DNA of 64,000 nt from Gemmatimonadota bacterium. Its GTDB lineage: Bacteria > Gemmatimonadota > Gemmatimonadetes > Longimicrobiales > Gaopeijiaceae. Each line of letters opens with the position of its first letter. Position 1 is the stretch's first letter. The notes below the pieces were generated by a model. That model worked only from the letters and a program-made list of their open reading frames with translations. It ran no database searches and had not been told where the DNA came from. This document shows, piece after piece, positions 3,567-39,769 of this stretch. The DNA lies in contig VXOC01000085.1 in NCBI GenBank assembly GCA_009840215.1, forward strand, positions 1 through 64,000. Direction: 5' to 3'. The position numbers and the translations under genes were made by a program.

Positions 3567-3703
3567 GGGAAGCCCGTCGGCGGCTTTCTGGCTGGACTTG
3601 GTCTCACACCCGGAACGCCAGATCGTGAGACAGGGCACGAAGATCTAATCATGGTAATCAGCGCACTTGCATCCGTTGATTTGCGAGTGACACATTGGCA
3701 GGG

Positions 3704-6700
3704 ATGACTCTTTCCGCACGGTCCCTGCAAGACGATCCGCGGCTTGGCCTTGGCGGCGATAGAAACGTGGTGGACGAGAAGGCTCGAACGCCGGGCAACC
3801 GCAGAGCAGCTGCCCCATGGCTGCTCTCCATCTTGTGCCTGTGCATGAGCTGTGGAGAGGGGGCGCCCACTGCGCCGCCGCAGCCGGTTGCCACCATGGT
3901 GATCGTGGCGCCATCGGCCGTGACACTGTCCGCATTGCGAGATACGACTCGACTCACCGCGACCGTGCTCGACCAGAACGGTCAGGTTATGACGGGTGCT
4001 CTGGTGGCATACTCGTCCAGCGCGGACTCGGTGGCGACGGTGGACGTTTCCGGCCTTGTAACCGCTGTGGGAAACGGGACCGCAGTGGTGACGGCCACGA
4101 GCGGCGGAGCGTCCGGGAACGCGACGGTGACGGTGGAGCAGAGGGTGGCGGAGGTGCGCGTGTCGCCGGATTCGGTGACGCTCGTTGCGTTGGGGGACAT
4201 CGTGCGATTGGCGGTCGAGGCGCTGGACGCGAACGGCCACGAGGTGGCAGGCGCCGAGGTCGCATGGTCGAGCGCGGATTCGGTGGCGACGGTGGACGAT
4301 GCCGGCCTGGTGACGGCCGTGGGCAACGGGACTGCAGCGGTGACGGCCACAAGCCGTGATGTGTTCGGCAGCGCAAACGTGGCGGTGCGGCAGAAGGTAG
4401 CGGAGGTGCGCGTGTCGCCGGATTCGGTGGCGCTGTTCTCGATCGGGGACACCGTGCGTCTGACGGCGGAGGCGCTGGATGCGAACCACCATGCAGTTGC
4501 AGAGGCCGGGCTCGACTGGTCGGGTATCGATTCGGTGATGACCGTGGACCCGACGGGCCTGGTCACGGCGGTGGGCAACGGGATCGCGGTTGTTACCGCC
4601 ACAAGCGGTGAAGCGTCCGGGAGCGCCACCGTGACCGTGCGGCAGAAGGTGGCGGAGCTGGGCGTGTCGCCGGACACGGTGACGCTCGTTGCGGTTGGAG
4701 ACACGGTGCGATTGGTGGCCGAGGCGCTGGACGCGAATGGTCACGAGGTGGCGAACATCGAATTCACGTGGTCGAGCACGGATTCGGTGGCGACTGTGGA
4801 CGGGTCCGGCTTGGCGACCGCCGTGGGCAACGGGATTGCCGTGGTGACAGCCACAAGCGGTGAATCCTCCGGAAGCGCTACCGTGACGGTGGAGCAAAGG
4901 GTGGCGGAGGTGCGCGTCTCGCCCGATTCGGTGACGCTCTTCGCGCTTGGGGACACCGTGCGCCTGGGAGCCAACGCGCTGGACGCAAACGGCCATGCAG
5001 TTGCGCGCGCCGGCTTCGATTGGTCGAGCAGCAATTCGGTGATGACCGTGGACACGACGGGACTGATCATCGCCATCGGCAACGGGTCGGCGGTTGTGAC
5101 GGCCACAAGCGGTGACGTGTCCGGGAGCGCGACGGTGACGGTGGAGCAGAGGGCGGCAGAGGTGCGTGTCCTTCCGGAGTCGGCATTGCTCTTCGCGATC
5201 GGCGACACCGTGCGCCTGGCGGCCGAGGCGCGGGACGCGAACGGCCATGCAATTGCGCATGCCGAGTTCGACTGGTCCAGCAGCGCCTTCGGAGTACGCG
5301 TGGACGACTCCGGCCTGGTCACGGCGGTAAGCGAAGGAAACGCCGTGGTGACGGCGGCAAGCGGCGAAGCGTCCGGGAGCGCTGCGGTTCGGGTGACGGT
5401 TCTAACCGGTCCTGCCAGGGACCGGGCGATACTGGAGACCTTCTACGAAGCGACCGGTGGCTCGGCGTGGGCGAACAACGACGGTTGGCTCACGGATGCG
5501 CCATTGAGCAAATGGTACGGTGTCCGCACCGACCGGGGAGGCCGGGTAGTGGAGCTGGAACTCATCGCCAACAATCTGGAGGGCCACATACCGGCCGCGC
5601 TCGGCCGGCTCGATCAGCTCCGGAACCTTGAACTGAGCGGAGCACCCGCCTTCGGTGCGTGGTGTTCACTCACACGTCCAGGCGAGAGGGGTGGCCCCGG
5701 TTGGCCCGAATCCGCGAGCGAGGTGGAAGACTACGACCTGCGCTCGCAGGTCACGCACAGCGTTGGAAACCGTACGCTCGGAGCCGACGATGTTCCGCCG
5801 CGTGCACTCGCGAGTGCAGGCACCAGCGTTCAAGGTCCCGGCAACCGACTGAAGGGCCGGATTCCACCAGAACTTGGCAGCCTGACCAACCTTGAATCGC
5901 TTGGCCTCGGCGTGAACGAACTCTCCGGGCCGCTCCCGCCCGAGCTGGGCAAGCTCGTCAACCTGACCAAGATGTGGCTCCCGGGGAACCTGCTGACCGG
6001 CTCACTCCCACCCGAGCTCGGCAACCTGACCCGCCTTGAGCGGCTGGTCCTGACCGTAAGCTACGACCGTTCACTTGACCCCCGGGGCCCGCGAGCATCC
6101 CTGTCGGGGCCACTCCCGCCGGAGCTTGGGAAGCTGACTAACCTGCTGGAGTTGGATCTCTTCGGACAGAGATTCACCGGGGAGGTCCCGCCGGTATTCG
6201 GAAGGCTGGTGCAACTGCAATACCTGGATTTCGCCTGCAATCGGATTACCGGCACGCTTCCGTCGGAACTGCGAAAGCTCCGCGAATTGCGCTTCTTGCG
6301 TCTGTTCGGCAACCGGCTCGATGGGGAGTTTCCCGAATGGCTCGGTGAGCTCACCAACCTGGAGTATGTCGATATCAGTGGTAACCCTTTCTTGACCGGG
6401 GAGATTCCGCCGGGCATTGGCGCGTTGACCAAACTGGTCAAGCTGTTCCTATCGGAAAACCGGCTCTCCGGCCCGATCCCGGCAGAGATCGGTCGCATGG
6501 CCGGCCTGGAAAAGCTCAATGTGGCGGTGAACCAACTGTCCGGCGTGCTTCCGTCCCAGATCGGGAATCTGACGAATCTGAGGAGTCTGTCGGTTTTCTG
6601 GAACCCCGACCTCGCCGGGCCGCTCCCCCGCGAAATCACCCGGATTCCATTGCAGGAGTTCTATTGGGACATCACCAGCCTCTGTGCCCCGCAGGATCGT

Positions 6701-8828: not shown

Positions 8829-8846
8829 TAAACCGGAGTGGACATC

Positions 8847-9749
8847 ATGATGGATCCGGTGACTTGGCCTCGCAACGTTTCCTTCGCCATGGCGGCGCTG
8901 TTGTTGGCATACTGGACCGGCGGTTGCGGCGACACCGAACCCCCGCCCCCCGCGCCCCGTCCAACGACGGTGACGGTGAGCCCGGCGAGTGTCAGGCTTG
9001 CTGCCTTGGAGACTACCGTTCAGCTCGCGGCGGAAGTGCGCGATCAGTACGGCCAGGTGATGACCGGGGCCGTGGTGACCTGGACGAGCGGCGATGCCAC
9101 GGTTGCGAGCGTGGACGGGTCGGGGCTGGTGACGGCGGTGGGCGAGGGGGTGGCGACGATTGCGGCGACGGCGGGGGATGCGCGGGGAACATCGGCGATC
9201 GCGGTTAGCGACCCGGACAACCCGGACCGGGCGGTGCTGGTGGCGCTCTACGAGGCGACGGACGGGCCGAACTGGGTCGACAGCAGGAACTGGTTGACGG
9301 ACGCGCCGCTACGGGACTGGTACGGTGTGGAAACGGACGGCAGTGGCCGGGTCGTGCAGCTTGATCTCGGCGGCCGGTGGGATGGGGAAGCGCAAACGTA
9401 TGTGCCGCACGGCCTCTCGGGACCAATCCCTCCGGAACTTGGCAGCCTCGCCAACCTGACGCGGCTTCACCTCGCCGGGAACGAACTCACCGGGCCGATC
9501 CCGCCGGAACTGGGCAACCTCGGCAACCTGGCGGGTCTCAGCCTGAATGCGAACAGTCTCACCGGCTCGATCCCGCCGGAACTGGGCAACCTGGGCAACC
9601 TGACGTGGCTCCACCTGGGTGGAAACACGCTCTCTGGACCGATTCCGCCGGAACTGGGCGCTCTCGGCAGCCTGACGGGTCTCAACCTGAGTGCGAACAG
9701 TCTCACGGGCCCGATTCCGCCCGAACGCGGCACACGTCTTCCAGTATAG
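8847..9749 (+). pseudogene. Left half of the second BIG2/LRR/metzincin gene, cut by the mobile element
   Basis: ATG 8847 lies about 8 bp after GGAG (8835-8838); an upstream in-frame GTG at 8838 is possible. The product has a lipoprotein-like leader (LLLAYWTGGC), one BIG2 repeat (VTVSPASVRLAALETTVQLA... GLVTAVGEG), the YEATDGPNWVDSRNWLTDAP cap and four LRR units. Host sequence ends at the 12-bp repeat 9715-9726; the last codons (RGTRLPV, then TAG at 9747-9749) come from the inserted element. The missing LRRs and protease domain resume in frame at 15530. The truncated ~300-aa product may still be made and exported, but it lacks the protease. Confidence 0.88.
9715..9726. repeat. Left attachment repeat (attL core) of the integrated element
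   Basis: TTCCGCCCGAAC here is identical to 15530-15541 at the other end of the element. Flanking bases extend the match imperfectly (CCCG before, GGCAC after; 21 of 24 aligned). Other copies of the LRR unit in this gene mostly read CCGCCGGAAC, so the shared C in both ends supports a duplicated core rather than chance repeat similarity. Confidence 0.75.
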
Positions 9750-9907: not shown

Positions 9908-11062
9908 ATGAAGCGACCGAGGACACTCTCCGCCGCGTTCGTGCGGACGGTCAACCGGCCCGGCGTCTACGGCGACGGGCGGGGCGGGCGCGGGCTGAGC
10001 CTTCGCGTACATCGGACACGCGATGGCCGGATCACCAAGACATGGCGTCAGCGTGTCAGGATCGAGGGGCGGCTCACCTCGATCGGACTCGGGCCGTACC
10101 CCGAGGTGACGCTCGCCGAGGCCCGTCAGAAGGCACTGGACAACAGCCGGGGCGTCCTCTTGGGCCAGGACCCGCGCGGGCGTGGCGTCCCGACGTTCGC
10201 CGAGGCCGCCGAGCGGACGATCAAGCTCCACCGGGAGGCGTGGAAGGAGGGGAGTCCGCTTTCCGAGCAGTGGGAGTCCACGTTCCGCCTTCACGCCGCG
10301 GCGCTCCTCGACAAGCGGGTGGACCGGATCGAGAGCGCGGACGTGCTCGCGTGTCTCGCGCCGATCTGGAACTCGAAGCCCGCAGCGGCGCGGAAGACCC
10401 AGCATCGGATCACCGCCGTTTTCCGCTGGTGCATCGGTCGAAACTACCGGGCGGACAACCCGGTGGACCGGGCGGTCGTTGCGCTGCCGAAGGCGAACGG
10501 CCACACGACAACCCACCACCGCGCGCTCCCGCACGGAGAGGTCGCCGCCGCGCTCCGAGCGGTTCGCCGGACCACCGATACACACCCTTCGGCGGCCCTG
10601 TGCGTCGAACTGATCGTCCTCACCGCCGTTCGTCCCGGCGAAGCGAGGGGCGCGCTTTGGCACGAGATCGACATGGACGCGGCGACGTGGACGATACCGG
10701 CATCCCGGATGAAGGCGGGCCGCGAGTTCACGGTCCCACTCAGCACCGCCGCGCTCGATGTGCTCGAACGGGCGCGCAAGCTGTCGGGCGAATCGCCGCT
10801 GGTGTTTCCGTCGCGGACCGGCGGGCCGCTGCCACCGAAAGCGCCGCTCAGGGTGCTCAAGCGCGCCGGTGTCGCCTCGACGCTGCACGGATTCCGGTCG
10901 AGCGCCCGGTCGTGGATGGCCGAGTCGGGCGTCCCGGCGGAGGTCGCGGAGGCTTGCCTTGCCCACGTCCCGAGAAGCCAAGTCGTTCAGGCGTATCAGC
11001 GATCCGACCTGCTGAAACGCCGCGCCGAAGTCATGCAGGCATGGGGCGAGTACCTCGGGTAG
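9908..11062 (+). CDS. int: Tyrosine-type site-specific integrase, P4-like
   Basis: 384 aa. The N-terminal ~90 residues match the arm-binding DUF4102-type domain of P4-like integrases (GLSLRVHRTRDGRITKTWRQ; IGLGPYPEVTLAEARQKAL). The catalytic set is visible: Arg242 in LTAVRPGEARG, HxxR at 327-330 (HGFRSSAR), His353 in CLAH and the nucleophile Tyr363 in VVQAYQRSDL. It should catalyse integration and excision of the element between the repeats at 9715 and 15530. P4-like integrases commonly use tRNA or tmRNA genes; here the target is a protein-coding LRR unit, and no tRNA is seen at either junction. No frame disruption is visible, so it may be active. Confidence 0.93.
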   Translation: MKRPRTLSAAFVRTVNRPGVYGDGRGGRGLSLRVHRTRDGRITKTWRQRVRIEGRLTSIGLGPYPEVTLAEARQKALDNSRGVLLGQDPRGRGVPTFAEAAERTIKLHREAWKEGSPLSEQWESTFRLHAAALLDKRVDRIESADVLACLAPIWNSKPAAARKTQHRITAVFRWCIGRNYRADNPVDRAVVALPKANGHTTTHHRALPHGEVAAALRAVRRTTDTHPSAALCVELIVLTAVRPGEARGALWHEIDMDAATWTIPASRMKAGREFTVPLSTAALDVLERARKLSGESPLVFPSRTGGPLPPKAPLRVLKRAGVASTLHGFRSSARSWMAESGVPAEVAEACLAHVPRSQVVQAYQRSDLLKRRAEVMQAWGEYLG

Positions 11063-11641: not shown

Positions 11642-11953
11642 ATGATGACCGAGAACCCGAGGAACGAGAGAACGAACCCACCGATCCGCTTCCTGCGGCT
11701 GCCCGAGGTGATGAAGCGCACGGGCCTGTCGCGGAGCACGATCTATGTCCGGCTGGCCGAGGGGCGCTTCCCCCGGCCCGTCGCCCTGGGCGGGCGCGCC
11801 GTGGGCTGGATCGAGGCCGAGATCGAGGAGTGGGTCGCCGAGCGGATCGCCGAGAGCCGATCCGTGGGCGAGCGGGCCGGTGAGCGCGTCGAGGCCGCGT
11901 ACCGGATCCCCGAGGCCGGTTGGCGGGCGGCGGAGACCCGCCCGGTGCAGTGA
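11642..11953 (+). CDS. AlpA-family regulator / excisionase
   Basis: 103 aa with a MerR-like winged helix near residues 15-60: RFLRLPEVMKRTGLSRSTIY followed by LAEGRFPRPVALGGRAVGWI and EIEEWVAERIAES, the standard AlpA signature (L..EV...TGLSR.TIY...G.FP.P..LG.R.V.W...E...W). AlpA proteins activate integrase or act as excision factors for P4-like elements. It lies between the integrase and the mobilization genes. A GAGGAG run precedes the start. Confidence 0.88.
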   Translation: MMTENPRNERTNPPIRFLRLPEVMKRTGLSRSTIYVRLAEGRFPRPVALGGRAVGWIEAEIEEWVAERIAESRSVGERAGERVEAAYRIPEAGWRAAETRPVQ

Positions 11954-11990: not shown

Positions 11991-12044
11991 GGCTTGCCTT
12001 GGGGAGGCAAGCCAGCGTACCCCGTGTAGGACACGGGGGCTGGC
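11991..12044. other. oriT: Candidate origin of transfer (two hairpins) upstream of mobC
   Basis: Two adjacent strong inverted repeats. First, a 9-bp stem GGCTTGCCT / AGGCAAGCC with a 5-nt loop (11991-12013). Second, CCCCGTGT / ACACGGGG with a 3-nt loop (12020-12038), extended outward by GCCAGC / GCTGGC (12011-12016 and 12039-12044). A nested hairpin immediately upstream of mobC and the relaxase gene is where oriT normally lies in ColE1-like systems. The nick site is not assigned. Confidence 0.6.
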
Positions 12045-12149
12045 GAGGGGATGGCGCTGCCCCCCTTCGAACCCCAACAACATCCGCGCGCCGCTGGAGC
12101 GCGCGGGCGGGGGCTCCGCCCCCCGTCCCCCGTGTCGGGCGGTCGTCCG

Positions 12150-12488
12150 ATGAGCGGCCGCCGCCCCGCAACCGTCTCCGCCCGCGTGTCGGCGGCAGAA
12201 CTCGCCGACTGGCGGGCCAAGGCCGCGGCCGCCGGCGTTCCGCTGTCGGCGCTCGTCCGGGAGGCCATGGCCCGCACGCGCACATGGACCGCCCCGGCGG
12301 CCGAGGTCGAGCGCGAGCGCACGAAGCAGGTCGCGCGCATCGGCAACAACCTCAACCAGATCGCCCGGTGGGTGAACACCCACAAGGCCGCCATCGAAGC
12401 CGTCGAGGTGATCGTCCACCTGATCGCCGTCGAGCGGGCGCTCCGCGCGCTGGTGCCCGCTCAAAGCCCGGACACCGATGCTCGTTAA
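12150..12488 (+). CDS. mobC: MobC-like mobilization (relaxosome) protein
   Basis: 112 aa from ATG 12150; the frame is open further upstream but that part reads as proline-rich translation of the oriT region. The ribbon-helix-helix start (TVSARVSAAELADWRAKAAA) and the hallmark ARIGNNLNQIARWVNTHKAA identify a MobC/MbeC-type accessory protein that binds oriT and helps the relaxase nick. Its end overlaps the relaxase start by 11 bp, so the two are probably translated together. Confidence 0.88.
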   Translation: MSGRRPATVSARVSAAELADWRAKAAAAGVPLSALVREAMARTRTWTAPAAEVERERTKQVARIGNNLNQIARWVNTHKAAIEAVEVIVHLIAVERALRALVPAQSPDTDAR

Positions 12489-14007
12489 GTTCCTCGCGCA
12501 CGGAACCGGGTCGGCCCGCAAGGCGGCCAAGTACCTCCTCGGCGAGCTTGACGCTGCCGGGAAGGAGCGCGAAGGCGTCGAGGTGCTCAGGGGAGACCCC
12601 CACCAAGTGGCCGCCGTGGCCGATACGCTCCCCTTCGACCACAAGTACACCTCCGGCGTGATCGCGTGGGCGCCGGAGGACGAGCCGACCGAAGAACAGA
12701 TCGAAGCCGTCCTCGACGAGTTCGAGAAGACGGCATGGGCGGGGCTCGAACCCGACCGCTACGCATGGGCGGCGGTGCTCCACCGCGAGAAGGACGGCGG
12801 AGCGCACGTTCATGTCCTTGCCGCCCGATGCGACTTGGAGACCGACCGCAGCCTGAACGTCGCCCCGCCCGGCTGGGAGAAGACGTTCGGCGCGCTTCAG
12901 GACGCCTTCAACCACGAACACGGCTGGAGCCAGCCGGACGATCCGGCCCGGGCCAGGGTGCAGCAGCCCGGACACCGCGCCTACGTCGAGGCCGCCCAGC
13001 TGAGGGCCGGGCTCCGGCTCGAAGCCTCACCCCGAGAGTTGATCCGGGACTACCTGCTCCAGCGCGTCGAGCAAGGCGCGGTGCGTGATCGCCACGAGGT
13101 CGTTGCCGCACTACGGGAGGCGGGGCTTGAAGTGCCCCGCCAAGGGATGGACTACCTGACCGCCATGGACCCCGAGACGGGGAAACGGTGGCGGCTGAAA
13201 GGAGAACTGTACGGAGTTGATTTCCAACGCGAACGACTTGACCGAGCGGCTGCGGAAGAAGTTGGAGACCGAGCGCAGGGAGATCGAGGAGTTGACCGCC
13301 GACGAGCTCGAACGGCTCGCCGGGAACTCGCGGCGCGCCGTCAGATACGCGCTGCGTACCATCAGGCGCGATACGGAGGTGGCGACCGGGCGGATGCGCG
13401 AGTTGCTGATGAAGGGTTGGATGAGGCCCCTTATCGTCGGCCTGAGCCTCTCGCTCGGCACCTTCGGCGGAAGCTGGGCGACGATGCGCTGGCTGTCGAG
13501 GAGCATCCAGACCCGGATCGAGGCCCGCGCCGAACTGGGCCGGGACATCGAGGACGCACGGCGGACGCTCGCCCAACTGGAGGTGGACACGTGGGGGCTC
13601 GTGTTCCACGAGATCAAGGGCGAGCGGTTCGTCGTGCTGCCGGACGGGGTGCTGGACCGTCCGCCGTGGCGGGTGGACGACCGTCCGGCCTTGAAGCTGT
13701 CGAACGAGTGAGGAGGCTGTATGAGCGCGTTAGAGGGGCAGTTGACGAGGGCCTTGCGGAGGTTGTCCGAGCAGTACGAGCGGGAACAGCGGCGGCACTC
13801 CGAACAGGTCGAGGCCTTGCGGCGGCAAGTCGAGCGGCAGACCGGGGAGAACGCCACCTTGAGGCGGCGAATCGAGCGGCTCGACGAGCAGGTGACAGGC
13901 TTGACCGAGTACTACGGGACATCTGGCGCCGCGAGACCGCGCGACCGCGGCTGGTGATAAGGCCGCCGACGCACGGGCCGGACCGCGATGCCGGTCCGAG
14001 CCGGTGA
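12478..14007 (+). CDS. mobA: MobA-like relaxase
   Basis: 509 aa. The N-terminal ~250 residues are a conserved relaxase domain: candidate catalytic Tyr19 (AAKYLLGE), His102 and the HxH pair His110/His112 in LHREKDGGAHVHVLAARCDL, the metal-binding triad of MOBP-type enzymes, then LNVAPPGWEKTFGALQDAFN. It would nick oriT and lead the strand into a recipient using another element's transfer apparatus. Beyond residue ~245 the sequence is Arg/Ala/Asp-rich and low in complexity because two other genes are encoded in a different frame there. The layout closely matches ColE1 mbeA. The relaxase type resembles those on proteobacterial islands, suggesting acquisition from outside the host phylum (inference). 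Confidence 0.9.
   Translation: MLVKFLAHGTGSARKAAKYLLGELDAAGKEREGVEVLRGDPHQVAAVADTLPFDHKYTSGVIAWAPEDEPTEEQIEAVLDEFEKTAWAGLEPDRYAWAAVLHREKDGGAHVHVLAARCDLETDRSLNVAPPGWEKTFGALQDAFNHEHGWSQPDDPARARVQQPGHRAYVEAAQLRAGLRLEASPRELIRDYLLQRVEQGAVRDRHEVVAALREAGLEVPRQGMDYLTAMDPETGKRWRLKGELYGVDFQRERLDRAAAEEVGDRAQGDRGVDRRRARTARRELAARRQIRAAYHQARYGGGDRADARVADEGLDEAPYRRPEPLARHLRRKLGDDALAVEEHPDPDRGPRRTGPGHRGRTADARPTGGGHVGARVPRDQGRAVRRAAGRGAGPSAVAGGRPSGLEAVERVRRLYERVRGAVDEGLAEVVRAVRAGTAAALRTGRGLAAASRAADRGERHLEAANRAARRAGDRLDRVLRDIWRRETARPRLVIRPPTHGPDRDAGPSR
13217..13711 (+). CDS. mobB: MobB-like mobilization protein nested inside mobA
   Basis: 164 aa, wholly inside the relaxase gene in another frame, starting at TTG 13217. 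An N-terminal coiled-coil-like part (ERLRKKLETERREIEELTAD) is followed by a hydrophobic segment (MRPLIVGLSLSLGTFGGSWA) and a second helical stretch. This matches the MbeB/MobB plan of ColE1-like plasmids, where the protein anchors or stabilises the relaxosome at the membrane. The codon use gives an ordinary protein here while the mobA frame becomes Arg-rich, which supports real coding. The non-ATG start is the weak point. Confidence 0.72.
   Translation: MISNANDLTERLRKKLETERREIEELTADELERLAGNSRRAVRYALRTIRRDTEVATGRMRELLMKGWMRPLIVGLSLSLGTFGGSWATMRWLSRSIQTRIEARAELGRDIEDARRTLAQLEVDTWGLVFHEIKGERFVVLPDGVLDRPPWRVDDRPALKLSNE
13721..13957 (+). CDS. mobD: MobD-like small coiled-coil protein nested inside mobA
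   Basis: 78 aa inside mobA, with a strong AGGAGG at 13711-13716 placed 4 bp before ATG 13721. The protein is one long coiled coil (LEGQLTRALRRLSEQYEREQ...), similar in size and pattern to MbeD/MobD of ColE1-like plasmids, which assist mobilization and entry exclusion. It begins 10 bp after mobB ends. The ideal ribosome-binding site argues strongly that this overlapping frame is translated. Confidence 0.72.
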   Translation: MSALEGQLTRALRRLSEQYEREQRRHSEQVEALRRQVERQTGENATLRRRIERLDEQVTGLTEYYGTSGAARPRDRGW

Positions 14008-14094: not shown

Positions 14095-14180
14095 GTGGCT
14101 GGCAACTCACAGGATGAACTGCGCCCGGTCTACGGTCCGCCCGCACCGAGGGCCGGCGTCAAGGTCTTGGATCGCTTGGA
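14095..14180 (+). pseudogene. N-terminal remnant of a pyridoxamine 5'-phosphate oxidase-like gene
   Basis: GTG 14095 is preceded by AAGGAGG (14083-14089) at ideal spacing. The first ~28 codons, DELRPVYGPPAPRAGVKVLD, resemble the N-terminus of the FMN-binding PPOX-like family (pattern LR.lYG.p..ra..KvLd.LD). Similarity then stops and no frame continues the family fold. The fragment is fused in frame to the barrel gene downstream but is unlikely to belong to it. Recognition is from memory of the family pattern and is moderate. Confidence 0.45.
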
Positions 14181-14340
14181 CGGTTCGATCAAGCGGCGAT
14201 GCGGTGCTCGACCCGCTGGCCTTCCAGAGCCGGGCTCGCTGTTGCCGACGCTCTTCAAGCTGCCCAAGCAGGCCAGTATCCGGACGGCATCCACGGTGGC
14301 AAGGACTGCCGCGTGCAGGAAATCAACGGAGAGGAGACAC

Positions 14341-15324
14341 TTGCCTCGCAAGCTGCACGAAATGGCCACCGCCCGTCCCGAAGGCAAGGATGCGCGCCGC
14401 AGAGAAGACGGCGGAACCCATGCGCGTTCCCAGCCCGGCGATGTGACCGCCACGGCCCGCGCCTTCGCCATCGTGCTCCTTTCGGCGTTGTGGGGCATGG
14501 TTGCCCAAGTCGCGCCGGCGGCCGCCTCGGTCCAGTTTCGCCCGTTCGTAGTCAATCACCCCTCGGCCCCGGAGGAGACCGCCCTCGAGCCCTATATGGT
14601 CGTTGGGTTCGGTATCATACGCTCGGCGACCACACGGTTCAGCGATGGTCACGACTCCGGGCACTACGCGCTGTACGGAAGCGAGGATCTGTTCGATGTC
14701 GGAGCCTTCGCGACCGGCCTGCAAGGTCGTCTCGCCGTGGGTGCGAAGGTGCCGTCCCGACTCCGCGTTCAGTTGGAACTCAGTCTGGCTCGGCGGCTCG
14801 GCTATCGAGGCAACACCAACTACTTGATCGCTGGGGAGCAGCAGCCGTCCGAGGCAAAGCTGGATGCCTGGCAGCTCCTTCTCGCCGGGTTCTACGATTT
14901 GCCAGGCTGGACGCTTGATCCGGGCCGCGAAGTCCGGCCGTTTCTGGGCGTCGGAGCGGGGATCAACACCTACCGCTTGAGCGGCTATGTTCAACGGTTT
15001 CCCGATCCGGTCGATCCCAACGGCCGCCTCCGTCGGGGTCCGGGCGGCGAGATCCCCTACACCGCCATCCCCGGGGGACGCGGGAGGAACCTCTCTTGGA
15101 TGCTGGCAGCAGGTCTGGCCGTGCCTCTTGTGGAGGGTAGTATCCAGTTCGTCCTTAGCTACCGATATGCCGGCTTGGGAGAGATCCAGACGGACATTGG
15201 CGAGATGACCGTCGTTCGGTATCGAAATGACGGGACTTGGGGAGAGAATCTGATCCGAATAAACCAGACCGCCGCCAATCTCAGTGCCCACTCGCTCTTG
15301 GCGGCCGTCGCGTTCGAGCTGTAG
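14341..15324 (+). CDS. Predicted outer-membrane beta-barrel protein (element cargo)
   Basis: About 327 aa from TTG 14341, which follows GGAGAGGAG closely; ATG 14362 is an alternative, and the frame runs back to 14095. A signal-peptide-like segment (AIVLLSALWGMVAQVAPAAA) precedes alternating polar/hydrophobic strands with many Gly, Tyr and Arg residues (PFLGVGAGINTYRLSGYVQR; LVEGSIQFVLSYRYAGLGEI) and a C-terminal strand ending in Phe-Glu-Leu. That is the form of a small porin-like barrel of the OmpA/Opa size class. No family is recognised. It is the only cargo gene of the element, so it may alter the recipient's surface. Confidence 0.6.
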   Translation: MPRKLHEMATARPEGKDARRREDGGTHARSQPGDVTATARAFAIVLLSALWGMVAQVAPAAASVQFRPFVVNHPSAPEETALEPYMVVGFGIIRSATTRFSDGHDSGHYALYGSEDLFDVGAFATGLQGRLAVGAKVPSRLRVQLELSLARRLGYRGNTNYLIAGEQQPSEAKLDAWQLLLAGFYDLPGWTLDPGREVRPFLGVGAGINTYRLSGYVQRFPDPVDPNGRLRRGPGGEIPYTAIPGGRGRNLSWMLAAGLAVPLVEGSIQFVLSYRYAGLGEIQTDIGEMTVVRYRNDGTWGENLIRINQTAANLSAHSLLAAVAFEL

Positions 15325-15529
15325 CTCAGCACGGCGCTCGGCGACTCGTTTGGAAACACTCGGTAGGTCTGCGTTGGCAGCTTGAGAGAATCGTCCAATA
15401 GTTTCCGTTACGGGCGCATAGATTCTCGTTCACATTTGCATATTCAAAGTGATACACAGCCCGATGGATAGTTTGTGTAAGTTGTTGTCCGAAAACAAGT
15501 TGAGAAATTGTCCGATCAATGTTTCCCGG
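15325..15529. other. AT-richer right end of the integrated element
   Basis: No gene seen. It contains AGTGATACAC (15448-15457), shared with the left end, and TTGTCCGA twice (15485-15492 and 15508-15515), the reverse of motifs at 11275-11292. The base composition is clearly more AT-rich than the neighbours. It probably carries the integrase arm-binding sites. Confidence 0.55.
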
Positions 15530-15541
15530 TTCCGCCCGAAC
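15530..15541. repeat. Right attachment repeat (attR core)
   Basis: TTCCGCCCGAAC, identical to 9715-9726. Immediately after it the host LRR gene resumes with CTGGGCACC in the correct frame. Confidence 0.75.
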
Positions 15542-18500
15542 TGGGCACCCTCGGCAGCCTGTCGGCTCTAAGCCTGAATGACAACGAACTCAGGAGCCCG
15601 ATTCCGCCGGAACTGGGTACCCTCGGCAGCCTGTCGGTACTAAGCCTGAATGACAACGAACTCACGGGCCCGATTCCGCGGGAACTGGGCACCTTGGCCA
15701 GCCTGTCGGCCCTCAACCTGAGTGACAACGAACTCACGGGCCCGATTCCGCCGGAAGTGGGCACCCTCGCCAGTCTGTCGGTTCTCAACCTGAATGGCAA
15801 TGATCTGTCCGGCCCGATTCCGCCGGAATTGCGCAATCTCGCCAACCTGACGTTGCTCGACCTGGCTGGGAATACTCTTTCCGGCCCGATTCCACCCGAA
15901 CTGGGCGGCCTTGTCAAGCTGAGGCGGCTCGACCTGGGTGAAAACGCTCTTTCCGGCCCGATTCCGCAGGAACTGGGAAGTTTCGGGAACCTGACGGGGC
16001 TTTACCTGGAAGACAACAGTCTTTCCGGCCCGGTTCCGCCGGAACTCGGCAACCTCGCCAACTTGAGGTGGCTTAACTTTCGCAGTAACCGCCTCACTGG
16101 CCCGCTCCCGCACAGTTTCCTGCTGCTCGACCGGCTCGAGCGTCTCTACGCTTCAGCAAACGATCTCTGCGTCCCCGGCATCTCCGCCTTTTCGGCATGG
16201 CTCAAGGGTATCCGATCCCGCGATTTCGCCGTGTTCACTCCCTGCAACGCCGCCGACATTGCCGCGCTCGAGGCACTGTACGACGCCGCGGGCGGCGACG
16301 GCTGGATCGACTCCGACGGTTGGCTGAGCGATCGCGACCTGGAGGAATGGCACGGGGTCACGATGGACTCCATCGGCCGAGTGACGGAACTCGACCTGGC
16401 GAGCAACGGCCTGGCCGGACACCTGCCGCCACTGATCGAGGACCTGGCTCGGATGACCGTCCTGCGCATGGGAGACAACGCACTCACGGGCAGGTTGCCG
16501 CTTACGCTGACCCGCCTCGCCCTCTCAGAGCTCCGATACGCGGGAACGGACCTGTGCGCCCCGTCCGAAGAGTCCTTCCAGGAATGGCTGGACGGCGTTT
16601 CGTCGCACGAGGGGACGGGTATCGAGTGTGCCCCGCTGTCGGATCGCGATGTCCTTGAGGCGCTCTACAACTCGGCTGGCGGCCCGAACTGGGCGCGCAA
16701 CGACAACTGGCTGACCGACGCGCCGCTGGGAGAGTGGGAAGGGGTCACCGTGGACAGCGAAAACCACGTAGTCGGTCTGGATCTCAGGCAAAACAGGCTC
16801 ACCGACCGGATCCCGCCGGAAATCGGCAGCCTCGCCAGCCTGGCGGTTCTGACTCTGTCGGGAAACGATCTCACCAGCCGGATTCCGCCGGAACTGGGCA
16901 GCCTCGCCAAGCTGACCGAGCTGCATCTCGGCTGGAACCAACTCACCGGCCCGATCCCGCCGGAACTGGGCTCCCTTGGCAAGCTGACGTGGCTCGAGCT
17001 GCCTGGAAACAGTCTTTCCGGCCCGATTCCGCGGGAACTGGGCGGCCTCGTCGAACTGAAGCGCCTCTACCTGGAGGACAACGAACTCACGGGTCCGATC
17101 CCGCCGGAACTCGGTGCCCTCGCCAACCTGACGTGGCTCGAGCTTTCAAGAAACAGGCTGACGGGCCCCATCCCGCGGGAGCTCGGGAGCTTGCCGGGTC
17201 TGGTAGTGCTTGACCTCGGGGACAATGCGCTCAAAGGTCCGATTCCCGCCGAACTCGGGAATCTGGCCCGCCTTGGCTGGCTGTTCCTATGGGGCAACAA
17301 CCTGACCGGCCCGATTCCCGGGGAACTCGGCAGCCTCGCGCGCGTCACCCGCCTGTCGCTCAGCGACAACGAACTTTCCGGCGTCATTCCGGGAGAACTC
17401 GGCGGCCTTGCCCGCGTGACCTCCCTGGGACTCGACGGCAACGCCCTCTCCGGCCCGCTCCCGCCCCGGCTCGGCGAGCTCTCGAGGCTGGAAGCGCTGC
17501 TGCTCAACAACAACGAACTGACGGGTTCGGTGCCCCCGGAGTTTGGCGGCATGGCGAGCCTGCGGGAGCTTTCGGTCGCCAACAACACCGCGATGTCAGG
17601 AGCCCTCCCCGCGGATCTGACCGGTCTCCACGAACTGGAGGCGCTCATAGCTGGCGGCACGGACCTGTGCGCGCCCACGGACGGCGACTTCAAGACCTGG
17701 CTCGAAGGGATAGCCAGGCGCAGGATCCGCCACTGCGCCGAAGGACTGCCGGCGGCCTACCTGACGCAGGCGGTCCAGTCGCGTGAGTTTCCCGTTCCGC
17801 TGGTGGCGGGCGAGCGGGCGCTGCTGCGGGTGTTCGTGACGGCTGGCGAGACCACCCGCGAAGGAATACCGCGGGTCGTGGCCCGCTTCCATGTGGACGG
17901 CCGCGAGACGCACGTGGAAGACATCCCGGGCAAGTCCGATCCGATCCCGACCGAGGTGGACGAGAGTCGTCTCTGGAAGTCGGCGAACGCGGAGATCCCG
18001 GCGCATGTGATTCAGCCGGGGCTTGAGATGGTGGTCGAAGTGGATCCGGATGGGACGCTGAACCCGGATCTCGGGGTCCCGCGACGGATTCCGGCTTCGG
18101 GCCGGCTGGCGGTGGAGGTGCGCGACATGCCCACCTTCGACCTGACCGTGATTCCGTTCGTCTGGACCGAGACCCACGACTCTTCCATCGTGGACCTCGT
18201 CGAGGCGATGGCCGCGGATCCCGAGAACCACGAGATGCTCGAGGACACCCGCACGCTGCTGCCGATCGGCGAACTCGATGTCACGGCACACGAACCCGTG
18301 TTGAGTTCGACCAACAACGGGATCGTGCTGCTCTTCCGTACCGGGGCCATTCGGGCCATGGAGGGTGGGACCGGACACTACATGGGCATGATGGTACCGC
18401 CTGTCAGGTTGGTGGGTGGGGCTTCCTTCGGCCCTCCCGCCAGGTCGAGCTTCTCGCAGCCCTATCCATACATCGTGGCCCACGAACTCGGACACAACAT

Positions 18501-19221
18501 CAGTCTCTATCACGCCCCGTGCGGTGATCCCGCCGGCCTCGACTCCAACTTCCCGCACTCCGACGGATCGACCGGGGCCTGGGGCTACGACCTCCGCGAC
18601 GGCGGGAGCCTGGTACGCCCGTCCACGGCCGACCTGATGTCGTATTGCCGGCCCTCGTGGATGAGCGATTACCACTTCACCAACGCGCTGCGCTTCCGGT
18701 TGAGCGACGCGGACAGCGTGGGGTTGCCGCGGGTTTCGGGGCCGCGCCGGTCGCTGCTGCTCTGGGGTGGAGTGGGTGCCGACGGCGTGCCGTTCCTGGA
18801 GCCCGCGTTCGTGGTTGACGCGCCGTCGGCGCTGCCTCAAACCGGCGGAGCGTACAGGCTCACCGGAAGCACCGCCGGCGGTGCCGAACTGTTCTCTCTT
18901 CGCTTCGACATGCGCCAGGTGGCGGACGGCGACGGCAGTTCCGGCTTCGCCTTCGTGCTCCCTGTGGAGTCCGGATGGGAGGGTGCGCTCTCCAGCATCA
19001 CGCTGTCGGGTCCCGGGGGGTCGGTCACGCTGGATGGTGATAGCGACCGGTCGATGGCGATCCTGCGCGACCCGCGGACCGGCCGGATTCGGGGTATCCT
19101 GAGCGACCTGCCCGCGACGGTGCTGACCCGGATGGATGCGGTTGCGGCCTTGGCGGCGGATCGGCGCTTCGATGTGCTTTTCAGCCTGGGGATTCCGGAC
19201 GCTGAGGCGTGGCGAAGGTGA
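15530..19221 (+). pseudogene. Right half of the split BIG2/LRR/metzincin gene
   Basis: Around 1230 residues resume exactly in frame with the left half. The part holds some 20 LRR units, in three blocks introduced by caps such as YDAAGGDGWIDSDGWLSDRD and YNSAGGPNWARNDNWLTDAP, then a region close to the C-terminus of the upstream paralogue with the zinc site HELGHNISLYH (codons from 18481), a DLMSYCRPSWMSDYHF Met-turn region and a terminal beta-rich domain. Joined to the left half the ancestral protein was about 1525 aa. There is no signal peptide or plausible start; an in-frame TTG at 15508 lies inside the element. Transcription from the element could still give an internal product, but it would not be exported. 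Confidence 0.88.
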
Positions 19222-19760: not shown

Positions 19761-21065
19761 TCAGACCGTACCCACCTCGTCCACGGGTCCACCCTCGGTT
19801 TCGGCGTCCACCTCGCCCTCCTCGACTTCGCTCTCCGCCTCCCACTCCCGCATCCTCTTCTCCATTACCATCCCGTCGATCGTCTCGATCAACGCCCCCC
19901 CGCGCTTGTCCGTGTGCCGGATCACACCCTCCTCGTCGAGCACGAAGATCGTGGGCCATCCGTACACACCCCACTCGGTCGCGATCGGCCCATTGGCGGC
20001 CACCACGTCGGCGTCAGGCTGGCTGTGACCGTCCCACCAGGTCCGGTAGGCGAGGCGCTCCCCCTTCTTCGCCTCGACGATCGTCTTCAGCTCGGCGTCG
20101 CTGTTGACGCCCAGCAGCGCGACGTCCTCCTCGTCGAAGAGATCCAGCATGGCGCGCTGGTAGGGGTACTCGCCGCGGCACGGCCCGCACCACTGCCCGG
20201 AGAAGATCACCGCGACGATCTTGCCGCGGTATTCCTCCAGCTCGAACTCGACGCCCTCGGTGTCCTTGCCGACGATGTTGGGGGCCACCCGGCCAGGCAT
20301 CAGGTACTCGATGTGGAACCGCACCCTGGCCAGGGCCTCGGCGGCTGCAGGGTACGACTCCTGAAGCGCCGCCAGCCCCGCTGCCGCACGCGCCGTCTGC
20401 TCGTCGCTCATCCGGCCCCGCTGCAGACCCCAGCCGATGCCCGAGACGGAAACCTCGACGCCGCGCTCCAGATCGGCGGTCGATTCGGGGAGGGAAAGGG
20501 CGGCGTCGATCGCCGCGAGCATGCGGTCCACCTGGGCATCCGTGAACGCCTCGCCGGGAGCCGGGTATGTGATCAGTCCGGGCCATGACAGGGCGCGGCC
20601 GACGAAGTCGGGCATCGTCGGCATGGCGGCGGCGTAGTATTCGAGCATGTTCGTGGTCCGCTCGATCATGTCCCGGGCGTCGGGGTGTTGCTCGGCCAGG
20701 GCTTCCAGATAGGCGCCGATCCGCTCCTGCTGCTCCTCGCCGACCTCGGGGATCGCGATGCGCCGCGTGAAGCTCCAGAGATGGAAGTCGGCCTCGCTTT
20801 CGAAGTCGGCCAGCGTCTCCTCGGCGGTCATCGCCGCCTCGAGGGCCGTCATGAGCTCCTCGAAGCTCTCGTCGGAGAGGGGCTCGCCTCCGTTGTCGTA
20901 ACGGGCCGCATCCGGGAACCACGGGCGCTCCGCGGCGGCCGGGAGATTCAATTCAGTGGACATGACGGCGTCATCGCCGGTGCTGGCGCCCGTGGTCCCC
21001 GCGACCAGCACGCCCAGCCCGAACGAAACGACCACGGCACCGATTATTGCCAGGGATCTACGCAT
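19761..21065 (-). CDS. Membrane-anchored TlpA-like thioredoxin protein, paralogue 1
   Basis: 434 aa. One N-terminal membrane segment (residues ~6-26), then two similar helical repeats of about 95 residues (pattern GEPLSDESFEELM..L..AMTA.ETLADFE.EA...LW.F) at ~55-140 and ~165-250, then a TlpA/AhpC-type thioredoxin domain with Cys293 and Cys296 in SGQWCGPCRGEYPY, a conserved TWWDGHSQPDAD segment and the cis-Pro region GWPTIFVLDEEGVIRHTDKR. The tail is strongly acidic. The active site should face the periplasm and reduce or exchange disulfides in a client. It is last in a three-gene operon, its ATG overlapping the previous stop by one base (TAATG). The function of the helical repeats is unknown. 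Confidence 0.85.
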   Translation of the reverse strand: MRRSLAIIGAVVVSFGLGVLVAGTTGASTGDDAVMSTELNLPAAAERPWFPDAARYDNGGEPLSDESFEELMTALEAAMTAEETLADFESEADFHLWSFTRRIAIPEVGEEQQERIGAYLEALAEQHPDARDMIERTTNMLEYYAAAMPTMPDFVGRALSWPGLITYPAPGEAFTDAQVDRMLAAIDAALSLPESTADLERGVEVSVSGIGWGLQRGRMSDEQTARAAAGLAALQESYPAAAEALARVRFHIEYLMPGRVAPNIVGKDTEGVEFELEEYRGKIVAVIFSGQWCGPCRGEYPYQRAMLDLFDEEDVALLGVNSDAELKTIVEAKKGERLAYRTWWDGHSQPDADVVAANGPIATEWGVYGWPTIFVLDEEGVIRHTDKRGGALIETIDGMVMEKRMREWEAESEVEEGEVDAETEGGPVDEVGTV

Positions 21066-22393
21066 TATTCCTGTCCTTTCTCGGCTTCGGCCTCCGCTCC
21101 GGCCTCCGGGTCCTCCTCATCGTCCGTCTCCGACTCGGCCTCCTCCGACTCCACTTCGGCAGCCTCCGACTCCATCTCCCACTCCCGCATCCGCTTCTCC
21201 ATCAGCAGCTCGTCCACCGCGGCAATCAACGCCCCCCCACGCTTGTCCGTGTGCCGGATCACACCCTCCTCGTCGAGGACATAGATCTGGGGCCAGCCCA
21301 GCACGTTCCACTCCGCCGCGATCGGTCCCTCGGCGGCCACCTGGTCGGCGTCCGGCTGGCTGTGGCCGTCCCACCATGTACGGTAGGCGAGGCCCTCCCT
21401 CTCCTTGGCCTGCACGATCGTGTCCAGCACGGCGTCGCTGTTGACGCCCAGGAGCGCCACATCCTCTTCCTCGTAGATCTCCAGCATGGCGCGCTGGTAC
21501 GGGTACTCGCCGCGGCAGGGTCCGCACCACTGCCCCGAGAAGATCAGGGCGACGATCTTGCCCCGGTAGTCCTCGAGCGCGAACTCGACCCCCTCGGTGT
21601 CCTTGCCGACGATGTTGGGCGCCACCTTGCCCGGCATGAGATTCTCGATCACGAACCGCTGCTGGTCCAGCTTCTCCACGGCGTCCGGATACTTCTCCGC
21701 GAGCCTGTCCATGAAGGCCGACACGTGCAGGGACTGTTCCTCGCTGAGGGTCCCCCGTTGCAGCTGCATGCCCAGTTGCCAGAGAGGAACCGACGCTTCG
21801 TCCTCGAAGTTGCCCGAGGCCTCGGGGACGTTGAGGGTGGCCTCGAGCTGCGCGAGCAGCTGCTCCACCTGGGCGTCCTCGAAGGGTTCACCGTCGCTCG
21901 GCAGCCCTTCCGGGTCGGAAAAGAGCGTGGCGAATCCGACGAACGACGGCATCGCCGGCATGGGCGAGGCATAGCCGTCGAGGAGCCTTCTGCGCTGGCT
22001 GATTGCGCGGCTGTCGGGATGCTCCTCGGCCAGGGCGTCCATGTAAGCGTTGATCCGCTCCTTCTGCTCGTCGCTGATTTCGGGAACGGCGAGCCGGCGC
22101 ATGAAGTTCCACAGGTGGAGGTCGGCCTCGCGTTCGAAGTCGGCCAGGGTTTCGTCGGCGGTCATCGCGACTTCGAGCGAGGACATCAACTCCTCGAAGC
22201 TCTCATCCGACAAGGGTTCGCCGTCGTTGTCATACTGGGCCGCATCCGGGAACCACATGCGCTCCGCGGCGGCCGGGAGGTCGAGTTCGAACACGTCGGT
22301 CTCGGCGTCGGGGGCACCGATACCTCCGGCCAGGAGCATTCCCAGTCCGAAGGAAACGACGACTGCGCAGACTACCGCCAGGGGCTGCTTCAT
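21065..22393 (-). CDS. Membrane-anchored TlpA-like thioredoxin protein, paralogue 2
   Basis: 442 aa with the same plan as its neighbours: anchor (AVVCAVVVSFGLGMLLAGGI), two helical repeats, and a thioredoxin domain with WCGPC at 289-293. It differs in the first repeat and has the longest acidic tail of the family, with more than 20 Glu/Asp in the last 40 residues. The start overlaps the stop of paralogue 3 by four bases (ATGA), and its own stop overlaps paralogue 1, so the three are probably one transcript. Close similarity in the redox domain and divergence in the helical part suggest that the helical part selects the client. Confidence 0.85.
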   Translation of the reverse strand: MKQPLAVVCAVVVSFGLGMLLAGGIGAPDAETDVFELDLPAAAERMWFPDAAQYDNDGEPLSDESFEELMSSLEVAMTADETLADFEREADLHLWNFMRRLAVPEISDEQKERINAYMDALAEEHPDSRAISQRRRLLDGYASPMPAMPSFVGFATLFSDPEGLPSDGEPFEDAQVEQLLAQLEATLNVPEASGNFEDEASVPLWQLGMQLQRGTLSEEQSLHVSAFMDRLAEKYPDAVEKLDQQRFVIENLMPGKVAPNIVGKDTEGVEFALEDYRGKIVALIFSGQWCGPCRGEYPYQRAMLEIYEEEDVALLGVNSDAVLDTIVQAKEREGLAYRTWWDGHSQPDADQVAAEGPIAAEWNVLGWPQIYVLDEEGVIRHTDKRGGALIAAVDELLMEKRMREWEMESEAAEVESEEAESETDDEEDPEAGAEAEAEKGQE

Positions 22394-23733
22394 GGGACCT
22401 GTCCTTTCTCGGTTTCGCTTACGGGATCGCCAGCGTTTTCGGCTTCGGTTTCGGCGTCCGCGTCGTCAGTGGGCTCTGCCTCGGCCTCTTCGGCTTCCGC
22501 CTCCGCCTCCCACGCGCGCATCCTCTTGTCAATCAACAGCCTGTCCACGGCGGCGATGAGTTCGCCCCCGCGCTTGTTCACATGCCGGATCACGCCCTCC
22601 TCGTCGATGACGTAGATCGTGGGCCAGCCGCTGACGTTCCACTCGGTTGCGATCGGCCCCCCGGTGGCCGCCACCTCGGCGTCCGGCTGACTGTGCCCGT
22701 CCCACCAGGTGCGGAATTCCAGGCGCTCCTCCTTCTTCGCCTCGACCGCCGTCTCCAGCAAGGCGTCGCTGTTGACGCCCAGGAGCGCCACGTCCTCATC
22801 CTCGAAGAGGTCCAGCATGGCGCGCTGGTACGGGTACTCCCCGCGACAGGGGCCGCACCACTGCCCGGAGAAGATCAGCGTGACGATCTTGCCACGGTAA
22901 TCTTCGAGCTCGAACTCGACGCCCTCGGTGTCGGTACCCACGATGTTCGGCGCGACGTTGCCCGGAATGAGATTCTCGACCAGGAAACGCTGGCGGTCGA
23001 TGAACTCCGCGGCGTCGGGGTTCTCCTCCTTGAGTCCCTCCAGATAGGCCACGATCCGCGCGGTCTGTTCTTCGCTGACCTGGCCCAGCTGCAGACGGTT
23101 GCCGAAGCGCCAGAAGAGGGTGCCCGCTTCACCCTCGATGTCGGAGCCCACCTCGGGCAGATTGAGCGCGCCCTTGAGCGTGGTGAGCATCCGGTCCACC
23201 TGGGCGTCTTCGAAGGGCTCCCCTTCGTTGTCGTATTCGTCGGCCATCCCGAAGAACATGACGCTGAGGGTGGCGGGCGGGGCGCTGGGCATTGAAGCGG
23301 CGTAGGATTCGAGCAGTTGCCCGCGCCGCTCGATGACCGTGCGGTGGTCGGGGTGCTGCTCGGCCAGCTTCTCCAGGTACTCCGTGGCCCGCGCCTTCTG
23401 CTCTTCGGTGACCTCGGGGACCGCGAGGCGGCGGATGAAGCTCCAGAGCTGCGCGTCCGCCTCGGTCTCGAAGTCCGCCAGCGTCTCGTCGGCGGTGAGC
23501 GCCGCGTCAAGGTGCGAGAGGAGTTCGTCGAACTGCTCGTCGGCGAGGGGCTCGCCTCCGGTGTCGTAGTCGGCGATGGGGGGGAACCACATTTCCTGGA
23601 GCGCGACGGGGACATGGGCGAGCGGCGGTGCCGACCCCTCGTCCGCGTCAGGGGCTCCACGGCTGCCGGCCAGGAGCATTCCCAGCCCGAAGGAAACGAC
23701 TACTGCGCACACTACTGCCAGGGGCTGCCGCAT
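22390..23733 (-). CDS. Membrane-anchored TlpA-like thioredoxin protein, paralogue 3 (first of operon)
   Basis: 447 aa. The anchor is almost identical to that of paralogue 2 (MRQPLAVVCAVVVSFGLGML against MKQPLAVVCAVVVSFGLGML). Helical repeats follow, with WCGPC at 292-296 and TWWDGHSQPDAEV downstream of it. It is the first gene of the three-gene minus-strand operon; the 206 bp upstream hold no gene and should contain the promoter. The start is ATG 23733. No lipobox is visible, so membrane attachment is through the uncleaved N-terminal helix. Confidence 0.85.
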   Translation of the reverse strand: MRQPLAVVCAVVVSFGLGMLLAGSRGAPDADEGSAPPLAHVPVALQEMWFPPIADYDTGGEPLADEQFDELLSHLDAALTADETLADFETEADAQLWSFIRRLAVPEVTEEQKARATEYLEKLAEQHPDHRTVIERRGQLLESYAASMPSAPPATLSVMFFGMADEYDNEGEPFEDAQVDRMLTTLKGALNLPEVGSDIEGEAGTLFWRFGNRLQLGQVSEEQTARIVAYLEGLKEENPDAAEFIDRQRFLVENLIPGNVAPNIVGTDTEGVEFELEDYRGKIVTLIFSGQWCGPCRGEYPYQRAMLDLFEDEDVALLGVNSDALLETAVEAKKEERLEFRTWWDGHSQPDAEVAATGGPIATEWNVSGWPTIYVIDEEGVIRHVNKRGGELIAAVDRLLIDKRMRAWEAEAEAEEAEAEPTDDADAETEAENAGDPVSETEKGQVP

Positions 23734-23939
23734 GGGGGGACCTCTTTCTCTGCGGGATGCGGATGCGGCTTTGGGGACCGGTTTACGGAACCATACTGAG
23801 AGTACGGCTCGGTTGGCGTACCGGCAAATGGCGTCGTGGGTTGGGGTGTCCGCCGATGGGCGGGCTGGGAGGGTATTGGGCGGGGATTAGACTGCCCAAG
23901 CGCCGTCAGAGCGCTGGCCTTGCCGGCTCCCACCGGCCC

Positions 23940-24278
23940 TCAGGAGAAGAAACGGCGCAATGACCGGAGGATTTCCTCCATCTTCTCGATCCTGAGGGCA
24001 CCGATTCGCTTGGCGATGAGCGAGGAGTGCATCGTAAACAGCTTGGTCGGTTTCACCATCGATGGTTTGGGAAGCCCACCTTCCGCGAAGTGGCCCTGCC
24101 AGAGGGGCACCGCGTTCGGGTCATCCGTGATTTGAGAGGTCACCGCTGCCAGTACGAGGTCCTCACCGGCGGCGTTGAAGGAATCCGGGGACAGGACCAG
24201 CGCGGGGCGCCTCTTGGATGAACTGAGATCGGTGAAGGGGAAGGAGACGAGAACGATGTCGCCCTGCCTATAGGGCAT
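23940..24278 (-). CDS. MazF/PemK-type mRNA interferase toxin
   Basis: 112 aa from ATG 24278 (ATG 24290 is also in frame). YRQGDIVLVSFPFTDLSSSK followed by RRPALVLSPDSF is the MazF/PemK fold signature, with LAAVTSQITDDP and the SMVKPTKLFTM strand later on. Such toxins cut mRNA; the partner antitoxin is encoded just upstream and overlaps its start. The pair is inserted between TlpA-like paralogues. Confidence 0.88.
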   Translation of the reverse strand: MPYRQGDIVLVSFPFTDLSSSKRRPALVLSPDSFNAAGEDLVLAAVTSQITDDPNAVPLWQGHFAEGGLPKPSMVKPTKLFTMHSSLIAKRIGALRIEKMEEILRSLRRFFS

Positions 24279-24468
24279 CGTAGACGGCATCCTCCTCGTT
24301 TTCCCAGAACTCGAAGCTACGCTCCGAAGCCCTCAACCACGGAACCGCAGCCGCAAGCCGTTTCAACTCACTCTCGGAAAAGACCTGGTAGATCTCGCCG
24401 GGTGTGGGTTTCTCCACCTCCTGCAGGGGCGCGAACACCCCATCCCTATACTCGGCCTTGATGCTCAT
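24268..24468 (-). CDS. DUF104 (AF2212-like) antitoxin of the MazF-type toxin
   Basis: 66 aa. MSIKAEYRDGVFAPLQEVEK is the DUF104 start (pattern ..a.YedGvf.PLe.v), a small beta domain found in antitoxins of MazF- and VapC-type toxins. The acidic C-terminus (FEFWENEEDAVYDAL) would bind the toxin. It ends 11 bp inside the toxin gene, so antitoxin is translated first, as usual for such pairs. Confidence 0.8.
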   Translation of the reverse strand: MSIKAEYRDGVFAPLQEVEKPTPGEIYQVFSESELKRLAAAVPWLRASERSFEFWENEEDAVYDAL

Positions 24469-24522
24469 GGCTCATACTCTATCAGAGAACCGGTGGCGAT
24501 GGTAGGCCTCCTCCCGCCAGGG

Positions 24523-36115: not shown

Positions 36116-36149
36116 GGCATGCCCCTCTCGCGTGATGCGTACACGGCGG

Positions 36150-37439: not shown

Positions 37440-37549
37440 TGCGGGGACCTCCATGTGGCGTCGGCGTGCGTCCGCACCAGGACCGGGGACGGATTCTCGG
37501 TTCTCCTGTCGCGCCGCCGATGCCTTCAACATGGTGTGGGAGTGGGGGA

Positions 37550-39553: not shown

Positions 39554-39769
39554 TCTGGGCCTCCCTGTCGGGGGTGCTCGCGGTGATGGGGGACCCGTGC
39601 TTTCGACGTGGGTCGCGATTCGGGGTCCAGTTATCATGGTTTGATGCCATCGCGCGACCGAATGGTTTTCCGGGGACCGGAGAGGTGCGTCCGCGCGAGC
39701 GGGGGTCCGTGCGGTCGCGAACTTGCGCAACTCCGCGCGCCCGGCCACGATGGGCGGCAGGAGGAGCGC

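Follow-up and report, generated by a model that had tools for sequence, protein, structure and literature searches.

The window, a stretch of 64,000 nucleotides from a Gemmatimonadota contig (VXOC01000085.1), contains a relaxase gene, mobA, whose second half is also open in another frame. The original prediction had placed two genes, mobB and mobD, inside the relaxase gene, and both reading frames are found there, in frame +1 relative to mobA. The features of this region are as follows (coordinates are those of the window):

12478–14007, + strand: mobA, encoding a MOBP relaxase (509 aa) with catalytic Y19 and the three-histidine motif H102/H110/H112
13198–13204, + strand: AAAGGAG, Shine–Dalgarno sequence of mobB, within the RLKG codons of mobA (base counts from 62 copies)
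13211–13213, + strand: site of the ancestral mobB ATG, ACG in the window copy (TAT to TAC in mobA, silent for Tyr)
13217–13711, + strand: mobB (164 aa), frame +1 inside mobA, TTG start
13711–13716, + strand: AGGAGG, Shine–Dalgarno sequence of mobD (variants seen in homologues)
13721–13957, + strand: mobD (78 aa, coiled coil), frame +1 inside mobA, ATG start
13958–14004, + strand: C-terminal tail of MobA past mobD, ending ...RDxGPSR (conserved in 44 copies)

The stop codon of mobB (TGA) and the AGGAGG of mobD have one base in common, the first A of the latter motif. This Shine–Dalgarno sequence, described as ideal in the prediction, stands exactly four bases before the ATG. The turn of the relaxase toward Arg, Ala and Asp is also real: these residues make up 30% of MobA 1–247 and 49% of MobA 248–509, the rise begins with the overlap, and the hydrophobic residues drop from 27.5% to 16% between the same two parts. 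The tail of MobA past mobD is a possible T4SS export signal.

Homology to the ColE1 mobilization proteins

MobA matches PF03432 (5.2e-6), and the NCBIfam MbeA model aligns to its residues 1–487 with a score under the cut-off of that model. Y19, H102, H110 and H112 are invariant across 34 MobA homologues. In a profile comparison with E. coli MbeA (hhalign probability 99.8%, 450 columns), homology reaches column 486 of the MobA profile. MobB aligns with E. coli MbeB over 90 C-terminal columns (98.4%, 37% identity), and tblastn of MobB to MbeB genes gives E values of about 1e-5; its N-terminal half does not align to ColE1-type MbeB, and a Pfam scan of MobB returned no family. MobD matches PF04899 (MbeD_MobD, 1.5e-6) above the cut-off and NCBIfam MbeD (5e-8) under the equivalog cut-off.

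Structure modelling (mean pLDDT 75) predicts for MobB a single long helix, in which a hydrophobic segment at about residues 70–93 probably spans the membrane, and a small C-terminal beta domain. A search of the PDB returned no solved relative of MobB, and the MobA tail matched only designed helical repeats. The AlphaFold model of MobA (pLDDT 41) was too poor for interpretation and was set aside.

The nesting is of the ColE1 type, as had been proposed: the three proteins are homologous to MbeA, MbeB and MbeD, and the nested genes occupy the same +1 frame. In plasmids of E. coli and Methylomarinovum the nested genes are likewise in +1, and mobB begins just past an RLKG-type motif, with its Shine–Dalgarno sequence within the codons of this motif and at the same position before mbeB as in the window. 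An Acinetobacter plasmid has nested reading frames in the same frame and at the same place. Plasmid pSNC3-Kan shows the same offset, with mobA at 1659–3212, mobB at 2347–2865 and mobD at 2872–3105 (PMC9282650). Because homologous proteins are encoded with the same frame offset right after the same RLKG motif, the nested layout is inherited and no new overprinting.

The locus shares with the ColE1 mbeC-mbeA/BD operon the gene order, the overlap of mobC with mobA, Y19, and the AAGCCAG motif upstream of mobC. The two differ in their setting, ColE1 being a small multicopy plasmid and the Gemmatimonadota module lying in an integrated element with an integrase and AlpA, and also in the relaxase motif. 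The MOB-HEN subfamily is defined by a HEN motif III that replaces the three histidines (PMC12857230). Whereas the ColE1 type (MOBP5/HEN) carries HEN, and the E. coli relative reads HQD...ELNF, the Gemmatimonadota relaxase has the canonical three-histidine motif, with H102, H110 and H112 invariant across the 34 homologues, and thus falls outside MOB-HEN. In the broad sense of MOBP5, homology to MbeA with Y19, nesting in +1, and homology of MobB and MobD place it with the ColE1-type mobA/BD modules.

A module with both the nested layout and the three-histidine motif is found in the Methylomarinovum tepidoasis plasmid IN45P (NZ_AP024719.1), where MobA is 50.7% identical over residues 1–338. This module differs in its location on a 20.5-kb plasmid and in its MobB, which is 27% identical. 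In the gene table of IN45P (3270–3947), mobA is listed as hypothetical and both nested genes are absent. In RSF1010 (mobA/mobB, MOBQ), a membrane MobB is also read from another frame within a relaxase gene, which belongs to a different relaxase family. Neither mobilizable elements of sponge Gemmatimonadota nor overprinted relaxase genes turned up as the subject of an earlier report in our search of the open-access literature.

Selection on both reading frames

The nested frames could be chance open frames of GC-rich DNA, with mobA alone coding. When synonymous codons of mobA were permuted in 5000 trials, both nested frames stayed open in 19% of the shuffles, and a spurious 140-aa open frame in +2 covers the N-terminal part of mobA (12666–13088). 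In GC-rich DNA, the openness of a single sequence is therefore weak evidence, and we dropped it as proof of nested genes (P = 0.19).

Conservation among related copies is more informative than the length of the open frames. In 44 of the 47 copies in which the overlap is covered, a set chosen partly for tblastn matches to all parts, mobA, mobB and mobD are all intact over the overlap. The three others comprise two copies with a broken mobB (L029 and L030) and one with mobD and mobA both broken (L068). As a control, frame +2 contains 7–15 stops in every copy of the 47. By the terms of the original prediction, homologues whose nested frames often contain stops would speak against it. A MobB profile search of 298 Gemmatimonadota genomes gave 79 matches that cover 150 or more of the 164 positions, and by a count of the resulting table only 5 of them contain a stop.

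The substitution analysis by codon position that it had suggested as a check supports two coding frames. In an OLGenie-like count over pairs 80–98.5% identical, we classed each change as nonsynonymous or synonymous in either of the two frames. Across the mobB region the ratio is 0.48 (0.38–0.60) in the nested frame and 0.76 (0.63–0.93) in the mobA frame, and across the mobD region it is 0.50 (0.34–0.74) and 0.52 (0.36–0.75), respectively. Among the controls, a false +1 frame over the N-terminal part of mobA gives 0.97 (0.74–1.31), and the values for false +2 frames lie between 1.23 and 1.53. A set of twenty disjoint pairs agrees, with nested ratios of 0.53 for mobB and 0.46 for mobD. Diversity at the three mobA codon positions tells the same story, at about 0.08–0.14, 0.07–0.12 and 0.32–0.34 ahead of the overlap, flat across the mobB region (0.25, 0.22 and 0.26), and again in the mobA-frame pattern in the tail past mobD (0.16, 0.28 and 0.47).

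From these comparisons, purifying selection acts on the nested frames, and the mobA frame is constrained too, though more weakly. The homology to MbeB and MbeD, the nested ratios near 0.5, the 44 intact copies of 47 and a mobB start codon kept in every one of 62 copies leave chance open frames with a practically negligible probability. On this comparative evidence, nested mobB and mobD are more than chance.

A second alternative accepts mobB and mobD as real genes and regards the second half of mobA as passive read-through that itself serves no function. In the overlap, the third-position GC content (GC3) is host-like in the nested frames (0.90 for mobB, 0.85 for mobD) and not in the mobA frame (0.53, compared with 0.86 in mobA outside the overlap). 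MobA is R/A/D-rich here, and residues 339–403 are modelled without structure, in a low-confidence model. Over the second half of mobB, the mobA frame has a ratio of 0.93 (0.71–1.24), indistinguishable from neutral. Against passive read-through, the mobA-frame ratios are below 1 both in the first half of mobB (0.58) and in mobD, the mobA frame survives only 7% of synonymous mobB shuffles yet is open in 44 copies, the tail past mobD is conserved, and the profile homology to MbeA extends to column 486. We consider this alternative very improbable, and two-layer coding the better account of the region.

Start of mobB and relative age of the frames

An ATG six bases past the conserved AAAGGAG starts mobB in 37 of 62 copies. 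The remaining 25, the window copy included, have ACG, ACC or TCG at this site, and TTG, GTG or ATG six bases downstream. All 62 copies thus have exactly one mobB start codon at two sites six bases apart, never both and never neither. On a tree built from the non-overlapping part of mobA, the start state switches 7 times, at least 4 of them on well-supported branches; an independent-pairs test of the switch gives p 0.125, with only 4 well-supported pairs. The TTG at 13217 is the likely start in the window copy. Since this copy has lost the best-placed ATG, and 12 nt separate the TTG from the Shine–Dalgarno sequence, mobB may be weakly translated here.

The original prediction described mobB and mobD as laid over the relaxase gene, with the R/A/D-rich sequence as the cost. 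The dual coding stands; the direction is doubtful, as it is the nested frames that carry the host-like GC3. Such a pattern would be expected if mobB and mobD were the dominant and perhaps older layer, and the tail of MobA may thus be younger than they are, but it is no proof of the age order, because GC pressure fills the least constrained position. Tentatively, mobA may once have ended near RLKG, lost its stop codon and read through pre-existing mobB and mobD, with the far end kept as a C-terminal export signal. We put this history forward as a possibility less probable than its opposite. In it, loss of the ATG through a mobA-silent change would move the mobB start by six bases, and the same event would underlie all ColE1-type relaxases.

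An integrative mobilizable element and its hosts

The module lies within a larger element, whose further features are:

9715–9726, + strand: left direct repeat TTCCGCCCGAAC, putative attL core, within a leucine-rich-repeat (LRR) gene
9908–11062, + strand: tyrosine integrase (PF00589, 3.7e-20; PF13356 arm-binding domain)
11642–11953, + strand: AlpA-family excisionase/regulator (PF05930, 1.5e-23)
11991–12046, + strand: candidate oriT, with hairpins and an AGCCAGC...GCTGGC dyad, AAGCCAG at 12009 (fold z = -3.8)
12051–12488, + strand: mobC, ribbon-helix-helix accessory protein, overlapping mobA by 11 nt (PF21983, 9e-11; PF05713, 2e-9)
14095–15324, + strand: cargo, predicted outer-membrane beta-barrel protein (PF13505, 3e-4, under the cut-off)
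15530–15541, + strand: right direct repeat TTCCGCCCGAAC, putative attR core, within the continuing LRR gene

The likely start of mobC is at 12150, homology often beginning near residue 34. The candidate oriT sits between the AlpA gene and mobC, and 28 of 46 copies have the dyad in the corresponding upstream position; of the remainder, many are truncated. AAGCCAG stands upstream of mobC in ColE1-type plasmids too. We infer that the AAGCCAG/dyad stretch is the oriT, with a predicted nick within CTGG/CTT on the - strand at the AAGCCAG site.

The direct repeat is 12 bases long in this element and 16 bases in a related copy, L076, which does not share the cargo stretch. With an offset of 5815 bases, the LRR frame at 15508–19221 is in frame with that at 8838–9726, by arithmetic and with the flanks not joined. 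An integrase and direct-repeat ends thus surround a relaxase/oriT-like module without T4SS genes, which identifies an integrative mobilizable element. With other such elements it shares the tyrosine integrase, AlpA, the relaxase, the oriT-like site, the flanking direct repeats and the lack of a mating apparatus of its own. It differs in its apparent target, a repeated leucine-rich-repeat coding motif and no tRNA gene; no tRNA gene was found as integration site in the window. The integrase appears to insert at this repeated coding motif, which as an attachment site would give many sites per genome.

The LRR coding motif CCGCCCGAACTCGG, which encodes PPELG, stands 190–193 bases ahead of the integrase start in almost every copy with 90% identity or more. 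This comparison covered integrase relatives at loci L105, L127–L136 and L145, whose LRR-coding flanks differ. Elsewhere in the window, two tandem paralogue clusters on the - strand (19761–25836 and 34841–40201) encode thioredoxin-like proteins with a common N-terminal region.

The nested module was expected to be unusual in a phylum of this kind, and it is not: of the 298 Gemmatimonadota genomes sampled, 30, from 4 of 119 genera, contain relatives of MobB, with up to 12 matches each (MobB profile). Further copies of the MobA N-terminal domain are numerous, up to 11 matches per genome in 98 related genomes searched. Most of the hosts are Gemmatimonadota MAGs, among which is Candidatus Palauibacter denitrificans. 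Judging from isolate names and from published work on the group (PMC10469786), we take the host communities to be sponge-associated. The module is also present in Gammaproteobacteria MAGs, where mis-binning is possible, and a 6.19-Mb Bryobacterales chromosome record (OX638379.1) contains a copy in which none of the three frames is broken. Phage records gave two unannotated matches only. In the Bryobacterales copy, the MobA N-terminus is 85% and MobB 82% identical to the window copy. This level of identity across phyla points to transfer between them.

In some copies (L003, L010 and L038), a TAG replaces codon 4 of mobA (MHV*FLA) and other sequence takes the place of mobC upstream; in L003 and L078, homology starts at the mobA start, as if recombination had joined it there. 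Genus relatives, for example at G010:C40, G017:C2 and G008:C288, contain open frames for divergent VirB4-like and coupling-protein-like proteins, paired about 8.5 kb apart; these pairs are candidate helper conjugation systems.

The existence of broken copies, by the early mobA stop or in mobB (L029 and L030), is compatible with a decaying relic whose integrated copies no longer transfer. So is the search for VirB4/VirD4-type helper genes: the window genome and the single-contig relative G001 yielded none, and G021 gave only weak matches to the TrwB domain. We judge decay unlikely, if less so than passive read-through. Both frames are under purifying selection, modules 93–97% identical occur in different genomes, and an intact copy is present in the Bryobacterales chromosome. 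In addition, divergent VirB4- and coupling-type ATPase domains in many relatives make a helper element plausible.

Taken together, the locus very probably serves an integrative mobilizable element as its mobilization module; it is homologous to the ColE1 mbeC-mbeA/BD operon and has retained the two-layer coding. We propose that one mobC–mobA transcript would yield MobC and the MobA relaxase, while internal ribosome-binding sites would yield a membrane-anchored MobB and a coiled-coil MobD from the +1 frame of the second half of mobA. The roles in this scheme would be nicking of the oriT-like dyad ahead of mobC for MobC and MobA, and support of the membrane-located relaxosome for MobB and MobD. 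Transfer would depend on a helper conjugation system acting in trans.

The points of interest are the three-histidine relaxase, its location on an integrated element and the possibility that the order of overprinting was the reverse. Where annotation bars long overlaps, mobB and mobD of such elements will go unrecorded, as they did in the IN45P gene table. The more than 40 diverged dual-coding alignments, with their false-frame controls, make it possible to test directly which frame is older and what the tail of MobA does. The ColE1 overprinted mobilization module now extends to integrated elements in Gemmatimonadota and in one Acidobacteriota chromosome, and the nested arrangement is inherited and common in Gemmatimonadota.
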